Below, in pieces: positions 22,926 through 25,678 of a stretch of 36,803 bases of DNA. Below the pieces are notes generated by a model. It saw only the letters and a program-made list of their open reading frames with translations. It was not told the origin of the DNA and made no database searches. The DNA is taken from contig JASEES010000011.1 in NCBI GenBank assembly GCA_030019395.1, forward strand, positions 1,010 through 37,812, in the 5' to 3' direction. Origin of the DNA: Methanolinea sp. (lineage in GTDB: Archaea > Halobacteriota > Methanomicrobia > Methanomicrobiales > Methanospirillaceae). Position numbers and translations under genes: made by a program. How positions within the stretch are numbered: position 1 is the stretch's first letter; each line of letters opens with the position of its first letter.

Positions 22926-23675
22926 TTACTGTTCACCTCCGAGCCGTGCGATTGCACTCTCTGTCCAGACAGTGAGCCGCCCCGGGAGTGTGCCCGGTGC
23001 AAGGAGTTCGCAGTTGAGCTGGTCCACGGTCGCGACGTCGACTCCCGCGAGGTTCCCTGCGGCTGCAAGGGGCTTTTTCCCGGTCACGATGAGGAGGCTC
23101 TTCTTCTGCTTGTATCGCCTGCCCCTCATCTTGCCGCGGCCTGCACGGACTTTCCGGCTGACCTTTGCCTTCTCGATGTCCCCAAGGACGCCCGCGGCTG
23201 CAAGGACCGGGATGACCTCGCTCGTCTTCTTGAGGTCTTCGAAACGGTCTTCGAGGATGATGGGGACCTTCGCGGAAAAGACGTGTCCCCGTGCCCGGAC
23301 AATCTCTTCGCTGACTGTTGCTGCGAGTGCTGACCAGAATGCTTTCTGTTTCTCCTTCTTGTTGATCCTGCGGACGAGCACCTTTTCGACGACCGGCGGG
23401 TGGGCTTCCCTTCCACCTTTCGCCTGGGGCACCTTTGCTGCCCGGGAACCTCCCTTGATGCGGGGCACCTGGGCAACACCGCGCCCTGAACCCCAGCTGT
23501 GGGCTGACGAGAGTATCCCTGCATAGGGGTAGGTCCCGTGGGGCTGGCGCCGGGTGCTCTGCAGGGCAATAACAGCCTTTTTAATGAGGTCCGGCCGGTA
23601 CTCCTCCTCGAAAACTCTGGGGAGCTCTATCTCGCGCAACACCGAACCATCAAGCGATAATACCTGTGCTTTCAT
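22926..23675 (-). CDS. rpl4: Ribosomal protein L4 (uL4/L4e)
   Basis: Tunnel-constriction protein, 249 aa, in the archaeal L4e form (MKAQVLSLDGSVLREIELPRVFEEEYRPDLIKKAVIALQS). The long flexible loop lies around GSGRGVAQVPRIKGGSRAAKVPQAKGG. In bacteria L4 represses its own operon through the leader, which is relevant to the long leader upstream of L3 here. Confidence 0.95.
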   Translation of the reverse strand: MKAQVLSLDGSVLREIELPRVFEEEYRPDLIKKAVIALQSTRRQPHGTYPYAGILSSAHSWGSGRGVAQVPRIKGGSRAAKVPQAKGGREAHPPVVEKVLVRRINKKEKQKAFWSALAATVSEEIVRARGHVFSAKVPIILEDRFEDLKKTSEVIPVLAAAGVLGDIEKAKVSRKVRAGRGKMRGRRYKQKKSLLIVTGKKPLAAAGNLAGVDVATVDQLNCELLAPGTLPGRLTVWTESAIARLGGEQ

Positions 23676-23682
23676 CCCTGCT

Positions 23683-24696
23683 TCACCCCTGTTTGCTCTC
23701 CGTGCTCACGAACTCGATGGCCGGCTGACGGACGACGTGTTCACCCTGCCTCATGGCCGGGCGGATACGGACAAGCCTCTTGACCGGTCCCGGGATAGAC
23801 CCCTTGATAAGGACGTACGGGTTTCTCAGCATCCCATAGTGCAGGAATCCTCCTGCAGGACAGATCTCGTCACCATTCTCGCCGATCTTGAGTATTCTCT
23901 TGTTGAACTCCGTCCGCTGCTGAAACCCCATCTGGCCCATCTGGGGAACCTGCCATCGCACATGGTGGGGGTTCCACGGCCCGAGGTTGCCGACGTGCCT
24001 TTTCTTGCCTCCCCGCGCGTGTTTCCTCTTGCGCAGCTTTATTCCCCAGCGTTTCACCGGACCCTGCGTCCCCTTGCCGGTTGTGACTGCAGTGATATCG
24101 GCATAGGCACCCGGCTGGATGATATTTTTAAGGTGGACTTCCTTTCCCAGGAGTCCCGCGATGAACTCGAACCGCTGCTGAACAGTCCCGCCGGCGACCC
24201 GGATCTCCATGATCTCCGGGACTTTCTTGGGAACACCACTGACCTGCCCGGGCAGGGTGTGCATCACGGCAAAGATCTCTTCAGCCACCCCTTTTGCAAT
24301 GGCATCCTTGAGTGCCTCCATTGCCCCGGAAAAGTCGTATTCCTTGGGGAGTGTGATCCGTTTCCCGAGTGCCTTGTCAAGCTCGCCGGCCCACACTTCC
24401 GTGAGGGGATGCCTGCCGTAGGTGTCCCTGCTGTAAGCCCGGATGGCGGCCACCTTCATGGGGGGGATCTCGACAACGGTGACCGGGACCATGATATCCT
24501 TGCCCTCTGTCGGGCTGTTCTTGTGGTCATCCACCATGATCACGTGGGTCATACCCACCTTGTAGCCGGCAAAGCCCTGCAGCACGGGGTCCCCCTGGTA
24601 CGAGGGCCATGACTGGTACCGGGGTACCGGGCTCTTCGCCCTTTTCCGGGGTGAAAAAGCCAGGGATCCTTTTCGTGGCTGGTTTATCTTGGGCAT
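23683..24696 (-). CDS. rpl3: Ribosomal protein L3 (uL3)
   Basis: First gene of the ribosomal operon, 337 aa in the archaeal form ([31 protein letters not shown]; later [41 protein letters not shown]). It is an assembly initiator of the large subunit. ATG 24696 is preceded by a purine-rich stretch rather than a strong SD. About 0.5 kb of untranslated, hairpin-rich sequence lies upstream. Confidence 0.96.
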
Positions 24697-25273
24697 GTTT
24701 CAATCAATCCTGCACTTGCATTGTGTCGCAGGCCACTCCTTGTGGCCTTTACCGGTATTTCCGGTTTTTTCGCCTATCTTCGGCCAGAGCATACCGGAGA
24801 TGTGTGACGTGTCCGGGCTCCTGTCGCGCGGAGGGGGAAAGGGCGATGGATAGATGTCCAGGCACCCGTCTATCCCTCCGTCAGCAGTATGGAGTGGGTT
24901 TTCCCCCTCCAGGTGCAGTACTCCAAAAAGACGGCCCTGTTCCTGGTTAGTGACCGTCTCCCTGTGACCTGTCTCGCAAAGAGATCCTGAATCCGGCATG
25001 CACCTGCCTCTTTTTATGGGCAGATGACGGGCCCGTATCCCAGGGGATTCGTCCACCCTGCATGCCTGTTTCAGCGACACCCTGTCAGCCGGTGGTGACC
25101 ATTCACCACATTCTCACGCAAAGACACGCGTTCCTGGAACCCGTGTCCCTGACCTCTCATGAGGCCTCTGCTCCGCGGACTGCATACCGGGGACAGATAA
25201 CCCTCATATAGGCTTCCATAATAATTCGAGAGAAAAAGATATAAACCTTGTTCAACCGGGAACGTAGAAACGG
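24697..25273 (-). promoter_or_regulatory. Promoter and long structured leader of the ribosomal operon
   Basis: Two TATA-like elements on the minus strand (25245-25238, and 25212-25203) would start transcripts near 25216 or 25183, about 490-520 bases before L3. The leader contains several inverted repeats. One is a 6+5-bp interrupted dyad centred on 25135 (25123-25147). Another is a 7-bp stem (25092-25098/25103-25109). A third is GACGG/CCGTC (24958-24954/24934-24930) followed by T5 at 24929-24925, which looks like an attenuator. Two hairpins, 24751-24765 and 24731-24747, lie just before L3. The open frame 24700-25080 inside it has weak codon bias and no homology. No known RNA family was recognised. 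Confidence 0.5.
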
Positions 25274-25678
25274 TCAGCTGAAATAGAGATCTCCCTCTTC
25301 TGTGATATAAACGTCTATATTCTCTTTCACAAAACGGGCTTTAAAACGTTCAGGTACTGCGTCGCGGATTTTATTGATGAGGGCGATCGTATCATACCTG
25401 ACCTTGATCCCGAGTTTCTCTGCTTCGCGGTAAATGAGCGATGCAACCTCGAGCAGGTCCGTCCCTCCCGGGATGGTGCAGAGGTGTGTGGCATCGAGAG
25501 TGTAGAGGAATTCCAGCGTCTCCTTTGCCCTCCTGATATTCTCCATTGCAGACTTTTCGATGGTGCACACGTTGGCCTTCGAGGTTTTGATGAGATCTGC
25601 TATCTGCTGTTGTGTGAGCCCCTGTTTCCTGTATCGCAGGACTTCCTTCTGCCGGTCTGTCAGCAGACTGTCCTTCAT
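25274..25678 (-). CDS. tfx: Tfx family HTH transcriptional regulator
   Basis: Tfx was described in Methanothermobacter, where it binds downstream of the fmdECB (molybdenum formylmethanofuran dehydrogenase) promoter. The 134-residue protein matches it. An N-terminal sigma-70-region-4-like HTH covers about residues 4-50 (LTDRQKEVLRYRKQGLTQQQIADLIKTSKANVCTIEK), and a conserved C-terminal domain contains LDATHLCTIPGGTDLLEVASLIYREAEKLGIK. TATA TTTAAATA (minus, 25707-25700) is centred 25 bases before ATG 25678, so the mRNA is probably leaderless. It diverges from mtd and lies upstream of the ribosomal operon, so either could be a target, but this is inference. Confidence 0.88.
   Translation of the reverse strand: MKDSLLTDRQKEVLRYRKQGLTQQQIADLIKTSKANVCTIEKSAMENIRRAKETLEFLYTLDATHLCTIPGGTDLLEVASLIYREAEKLGIKVRYDTIALINKIRDAVPERFKARFVKENIDVYITEEGDLYFS

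Follow-up and report, generated by a model that had tools for sequence, protein, structure and literature searches.

The window, a 36,803-nt stretch of contig JASEES010000011.1 (assembly GCA_030019395.1) of Methanolinea sp., order Methanomicrobiales, carries the genes of ribosomal proteins L3, L4, L23 and L2. A 577-base gap (24697–25273) separates L3 from a Tfx-family regulator, both read from the minus strand (Table 1). The nearest named relative, Methanolinea sp. A05DMB-I-21 (locus L057), has an L3 that is 97% identical. A first-pass annotation, made from the sequence alone, had read the gap as a structured leader of ∼0.5 kb with no convincing gene before L3. The sole leader-strand open reading frame of at least 40 amino acids contained entirely within the gap (24700–25080, 126 aa) had no match in Pfam or NCBIfam. 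Compared with the nearest relative, its protein was 54% identical and its DNA 91% identical, and the weaker matching pieces found elsewhere in the genus (best in L059, E 5e-8) are those expected from conserved DNA, so that this frame does not resemble a conserved protein. The open reading frame list, Pfam, NCBIfam and the genus comparison revealed no conserved gene in the gap, and this part of the earlier reading was borne out.

Table 1. Features of the predicted L3 leader and of the neighboring genes (positions are those of the window).
Feature	Position	Strand	Evidence or remark
Tfx-family regulator	25274–25678	(−)	Next gene upstream of L3 on the same strand
TATA box TTTATAT of the L3 leader	25239–25245	(−)	∼0.55 kb upstream of L3
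Predicted untranslated L3 leader, ∼520 nt	24697–25217	(−)	Putative extent
Genus-level hairpin with the 25-base dyad (25123–25147)	25116–25153	(−)	9 sequences
Hairpin GUGGUGA/UCACCAC directly 5′ of the core	25092–25109	(−)	Alignment of 13 leaders with the methyltransferase genes of the 4 keepers
Core element, three-way junction, 88 nt	24987–25074	(−)	RF03135, R2, fold, covariation
P1	25074–25071/24990–24987	(−)	
P2	25066–25060/25001–24995	(−)	
P3	25058–25055/25032–25029	(−)	
P4	25025–25019/25008–25002	(−)	
Conserved 3′ extension GAUCUCUUUGCGAGACAGGUC	24966–24986	(−)	Outside the Rfam match; alignments
Attenuator-like hairpin of the first-pass annotation	24925–24962	(−)	T5 not conserved
Likely ribosome-binding region GUGCAGGAUUGAUUGA before the L3 ATG	24700–24715	(−)	Conserved in 9 genus sequences; putative role
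Ribosomal protein L3, first operon gene	23683–24696	(−)	PF00297, 305.6 bits
Ribosomal protein L4, published ligand guess	22926–23675	(−)	PF00573, 127.6 bits
Ribosomal protein L23	22675–22923	(−)	PF00276, 56.1 bits
Ribosomal protein L2	21949–22674	(−)	PF03947 + PF00181

The TTATA of the TATA box was invariant in all nine genus sequences, the window included. We compared 84 Methanomicrobiales leaders without the methyltransferase gene discussed below (gene-less leaders); L094, whose leader is cut by a contig end, and L106, whose L3 start was unmatched, were excluded. A TATA-like hexamer was present at most 350 nt upstream of the conserved RNA element in 75 of the 84, and only one leader had a TATA-like site in the stretch from the element to L3; a promoter close to L3 was not seen. 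With the TATA box at 25245–25239 and a nearer signal so rare, the leader probably starts near 25217, where the transcript start is predicted at a conserved GGAAGCC, and would measure ∼520 nt. The region GGAAGCCTATATGAGG at this position (25202–25217, minus strand) is nearly invariant within the genus and may be an initiator or a 5′-end structure. The stretch from the TATA box to this region matched at 80–83% over 51 bases in three genomes of two other genera (G019, G026 and G035).

The predicted leader folded better than shuffled sequences (z −5.26, 0/100), and the 88-nt core gave z −3.14 (1/200 shuffles). As proposed in the first-pass annotation, the leader is structured and holds real hairpins. 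The 25-base dyad is part of one of them, with 130 of 144 cells paired and compensatory changes in 6 of 16 pairs across the nine genus sequences. The hairpin first read as an attenuator-like stem was likewise real (85/99 cells paired, 3/11 pairs compensatory, nine genus sequences), but its attenuator reading did not hold: the T5 that follows it was found in only 2 of the 9 sequences. T runs occurred in 13 of the 84 gene-less leaders vs. 7.5 in simple shuffles, which is no clear enrichment, and an intrinsic-terminator attenuator was not supported.

Sequestration of the Shine-Dalgarno region was not supported either: when duplex energies were compared with dinucleotide shuffles, none of the 84 leaders reached p ≤ 0.05 (mean z +0.25), and start-region pairing was at chance level in all of them. 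In consensus folds, a CUGCAC/GUGCAG complementarity to the L3 start (24913–24918 with 24710–24715, minus strand) is conserved in the genus. In Methanoculleus, a conserved AUCAACUGUUUCCCUU is complementary to AAGGGUUGAU of the start region, with energies no better than those of shuffles.

The core of the leader matched the Rfam family RF03135 (“L4-Archaeoglobi”) with 37.4 bits (gathering cut-off 34.5, E ∼1e-5). This match was reported when the gap alone was scanned; a default scan of the whole window gave only a tRNA, so that routine annotation may miss the element in this group. L3, L4, L23 and L2 (rplC, rplD, rplW and rplB) follow in order downstream on the minus strand, and the secondary structure is backed by covariation in alignments fitted to the model. 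The window belongs to Methanomicrobiales and lies outside the published range of the family, Archaeoglobi, which is no criterion of the model. RF03135 is among 20 predicted ribosomal leaders, with Archaeoglobi as its lineage and a borderline rating (Eckert and Weinberg, 2020; PMC7247131), and is listed in Rfam 15 among the families gaining covarying pairs. The element forms a three-way junction in which P1 is an almost invariant CUGA/UCAG, P2 is variable in sequence, P3 consists of GGGY, three unpaired bases and CG set against CG.GCCC, and P4 is a hairpin without a common sequence. Our own model R2, with the window outside its training set, matched the window core with 35.1 bits (E 4.6e-6).

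In Halobacteria-type genomes the element falls within the gene immediately preceding L3, and this gene matched PF02598, Methyltrn_RNA_3 (192.8 bits). We take this family to correspond to COG2106. A role in forming m3U2619 of 23S rRNA has been proposed for COG2106, whose Haloferax volcanii member would be HVO_2565 (PMC2584109). A methyltransferase reading frame was present in all 30 best-scoring loci. Among 40 loci drawn over the phylum, the methyltransferase covered the motif in 32 (30 outside Methanomicrobiales and 2 inside), and the remaining 8 all belong to Methanomicrobiales. The frame stayed open over the element in all 48 coding loci checked in three groups, and fourfold-site differences inside/outside the element were 0.27/0.39, 0.46/0.65 and 0.44/0.66, respectively (the test took 20 of the 30 Halobacteria-type loci). 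The 15-codon windows outside the element that were as low as its 5′ part numbered 3/247, 3/238 and 19/170, and those as low as its 3′ part 36/247, 0/238 and 0/170, so that the lowered synonymous variation is plain for the element as a whole and not for both of its ends in each group. The open frame and the lowered fourfold differences suggest that the same bases are selected both as codons and as RNA.

An unaided alignment of 66 sequences (MAFFT and RNAalifold) recovered only four pairs, all of P3, since P2 and P4 vary too much, and model R1, built on it, was set aside. R2 was trained on 13 gene-less sequences picked for a P4 that aligned in register, which makes the covariation of these 13 that of a selected set. 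It matched all 84 gene-less loci, its 13 training sequences among them, and all 56 coding loci given to it, and Rfam's separate RF03135 model agreed with it. The coding search took 20 of the 30 Halobacteria-type loci and held two genomes twice, both Methanomicrobiales that keep the methyltransferase (keepers), leaving 54 distinct rows of 56.

The covariation figures use every locus given to the search. In the 82 distinct gene-less sequences, 96.0% of cells were paired and 15 of 23 pairs showed compensatory changes (324 cells); none of 500 shuffles reached any of five measures, and sliding the structure by 1 to 3 columns lowered pairing to 30–42%. In the 54 distinct coding sequences, 95.0% of cells were paired, with compensatory changes again in 15 of 23 pairs (132 cells), 0/500 shuffles, and 32–53% pairing in slid structures. 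These alignments were fitted to the model, which favors the structure. Covariation in related genomes, named in the first-pass annotation as a check of the leader, was strong in both classes of locus.

PF02598 was found in only 4 of the 199 Methanomicrobiales genomes by a six-frame profile search reading through stops. The same search gave no match in the window's genome (G000), and a PF02598 pseudogene in the window was rejected, as no domain was recognizable. The gene order was mtd–Tfx–methyltransferase–L3 in the four keepers, and mtd–Tfx–leader–L3 in L057 and the window. Thirteen chosen leaders and the codons of the four keepers shared conserved blocks over ∼160 bases, with indels between them: a hairpin GUUGUG..CACAAC with GGCUGACA, corresponding to EGVVL.HNGLTD; GGAUCUGA, to GSD; GGGUGGACGU..ACGAGCCC, to WVDVGATSP; and UCAGGAUCUAUUCGCGA, to VRIYSR. 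In the genomes that keep the gene, the counterparts are codons EGVVL..HNG for the hairpin directly 5′ of the core and codons ..RI[S/Y]SR.. for the first half of the 3′ extension. As judged by these alignments, we show that the element is homologous to a coding stretch of the PF02598 (COG2106) gene that elsewhere lies directly upstream of L3. The Methanomicrobiales leader is, on this evidence, visibly derived from old methyltransferase codons, and part of the window leader would descend from a lost gene that was invisible to the first-pass annotation. Protein traces were detected by tblastn in 27 of the 84 gene-less leaders, several of them in different frames, vs. 65 of 65 coding loci. A stop-free frame crossed the short element in 78 of the 84, so stops alone do not prove that coding was lost.

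On a quick L3 tree of 91 rows, the keepers were nested among gene-less lineages. Parsimony counted four gene changes, or eight losses if the gene was never regained, and at least two changes were forced by well-supported branches (those under 95 collapsed); in the few keepers the gene could have been regained by transfer.

For the wider search we used R3, a model made from 72 coding and gene-less members; another search, given 73 of the loci, matched 72 of them. Outside Methanomicrobiales, 184 genomes of the 392-genome set carried the gene, 176 of them with the element, and one of the eight gene-bearing genomes without it held a gene fragment only. Two genomes of other families, G068 and G363, had the element before L3 (R3 whole-genome E 3.1e-11 and 2.8e-10, respectively) and no PF02598 match even at E 10. 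RF03135 scored 29.3 bits on G068, under the cut-off, and did not list G363. G095, which has the same genus code as G068, retains the gene. In G363 (L186, 1501–1588, minus strand), P4 is reduced to a few bases and L3 lies 71 nt downstream of the element; this compact leader is perhaps the smallest working version. TATA-like sites lie 72 and 136 nt before the element in the G363 leader. By this survey, the host gene is missing in three separate groups in which the structured RNA is retained.

The RF03135 model matched 224 of the 392 phylum genomes, 202 of them above the cut-off, and also the control genome of Haloferax volcanii. With R3, the element was found in 252 of 392, a count in which genomes that contributed to R3 match by construction. 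The element is thus phylum-wide with strong covariation, beyond the published Archaeoglobi range, and this is new. Within Methanomicrobiales it was detected in 174 of 199 genomes (121/132 of the better ones), many of which had contributed to R3; Rfam's model alone, under strict filters, matched 47 of the 83 Methanomicrobiales of the phylum draw. At least seven of the 25 Methanomicrobiales genomes in which the element was undetected belong to one genus. In this genus (code g12, of the window's family), G023, G034, G485, G489, G491, G495 and G511 had no element match, and that of a further member, G499, was weak (E 0.006). None of the four keepers belongs to this genus, and its RNA appears to be lost too, or changed beyond recognition. 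Eight of the 186 methyltransferase-bearing genomes of the phylum had neither an RF03135 nor an R3 match (G082, G131, G160, G184, G190, G252 with a weak methyltransferase match, G263 and G327); a repeat search of four of the eight with RF03135 at E 10 again gave no match. These eight genomes may delimit where the element arose. Undetected in 25/199 and 8/186 genomes, the element is not indispensable.

Where the gene is gone and the RNA kept, a function of the RNA itself is very likely; there the RNA works independently of the methyltransferase, which cannot be its ligand. L3 was the next gene in all 70 loci checked (30/30 best-scoring and 40/40 drawn over the phylum), and this constant place before L3-L4-L23-L2 makes a ribosomal protein encoded by the operon the best ligand candidate. 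We infer that the element most likely autoregulates this operon; L4 as the ligand is a published guess by precedent. The first-pass annotation had offered an archaeal counterpart of the autoregulatory ribosomal leaders, and this prediction gained support: the RF03135 score above the cut-off, the neighborhood, the conservation and the covariation all fit it.

The best explanation, which we consider probable, is that the leader carries a cis-acting RF03135 RNA, made from the codons of a lost gene, through which a ribosomal protein autoregulates the L3-L4-L23-L2 operon. An excess of an operon protein, with L4 the most likely and others possible, would bind the three-way junction in the mRNA and thereby lower operon expression. 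Where the gene is present, the bound protein would block methyltransferase translation, and the resulting uncoupling would halt transcription of the operon downstream. Where the gene is absent, binding would exert its effect via the untranslated leader itself, through either premature termination or an altered fold before the L3 start. The element ended 200–327 nt before L3 in the 84 gene-less leaders, and the median of 273 nt is far for a direct block of translation.

It is possible, though unlikely, that the element is a functional cis-acting RNA that senses no ribosomal protein and serves mRNA stability, processing, ribosome loading or a general RNA-binding protein instead. Mimicry of rRNA, for one, was not found: when four Methanomicrobiales 23S loci were searched with unfiltered R2, the best E was 3.6, and short-motif patterns gave scattered 23S hits only, none with both strands of P3. 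The ligand L4 was assigned to RF03135 by precedent in bacteria, and some such predicted leaders may bind no ribosomal protein (PMC7247131, section 7). The constant place of the element before the operon argues against this reading, and the near-invariance of the bases at the three-way junction and in the loops would fit recognition by a protein.

A small RNA separate from L3, with a promoter and a terminator of its own, the other option of the first-pass annotation, is very improbable. A stable hairpin and T5 do follow the core in the window, but the T5 is absent from most of the genus sequences, and with the element ending at least 200 nt before L3 and a TATA-like site between them in a single leader of the 84, L3 would be left mostly promoterless. 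Scarcely credible is the reading in which the RF03135 similarity reflects protein-coding conservation only and the window holds a decaying, functionless gene remnant: 176 of the 178 element-bearing genomes outside Methanomicrobiales also have the methyltransferase, and the tblastn traces and stop-free frames described above would suit it, but strong compensatory changes occurred where no methyltransferase gene was found, P2 and P4 differ widely between genera yet remain paired, PF02598 is absent from 195 of the 199 Methanomicrobiales while the element is present in 174, and a neutral relic would not be expected to keep its pairing across most of the order.

Returning to a ribosomal-protein-sensing leader made from old codons, these data suggest that (i) an RNA domain inside the codons of a 23S rRNA methyltransferase likely controls a ribosomal protein operon; (ii) this domain was freed as a leader by repeated gene loss; and (iii) codons and regulator coexist in some archaea, by extension from related genomes also in Haloferax volcanii, where the element would lie in HVO_2565, with the regulator standing alone in others. 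The gene-less leaders separate selection on the RNA from selection on the protein and thus make a strong case for a functional RNA. The locus clearly illustrates how a structured RNA embedded in codons can outlive its protein gene. Haloferax volcanii has established genetics, and its RF03135 match makes autoregulation of an archaeal S10-type operon directly testable.

The leader described here shares with the RF03135 family the three-way junction, a score above the gathering cut-off and the placement before L3-L4-L23-L2. The family is known already; that it is nested in a gene and survives the loss of that gene appears to be new, as neither turned up in searches of an open-licence literature collection. 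As published, RF03135 is confined to Archaeoglobi with a borderline rating, and the word “methyltransferase” is absent from the main text of that paper (PMC7247131). In contrast, the element found here spans the phylum, covaries strongly and continues into a conserved 3′ extension that the Rfam match leaves out. It is nested in the methyltransferase gene in those lineages outside Methanomicrobiales that were checked, but free in most Methanomicrobiales. The bacterial L4 leader is exemplified by the S10 operon of Escherichia coli, whose leader has a U-stretch attenuation site. This site is without a conserved counterpart here. Both are structured leaders before an operon for L3, L4, L23 and L2, and L4 is the established ligand of the bacterial one (PMC7247131); the two likely follow the same logic.
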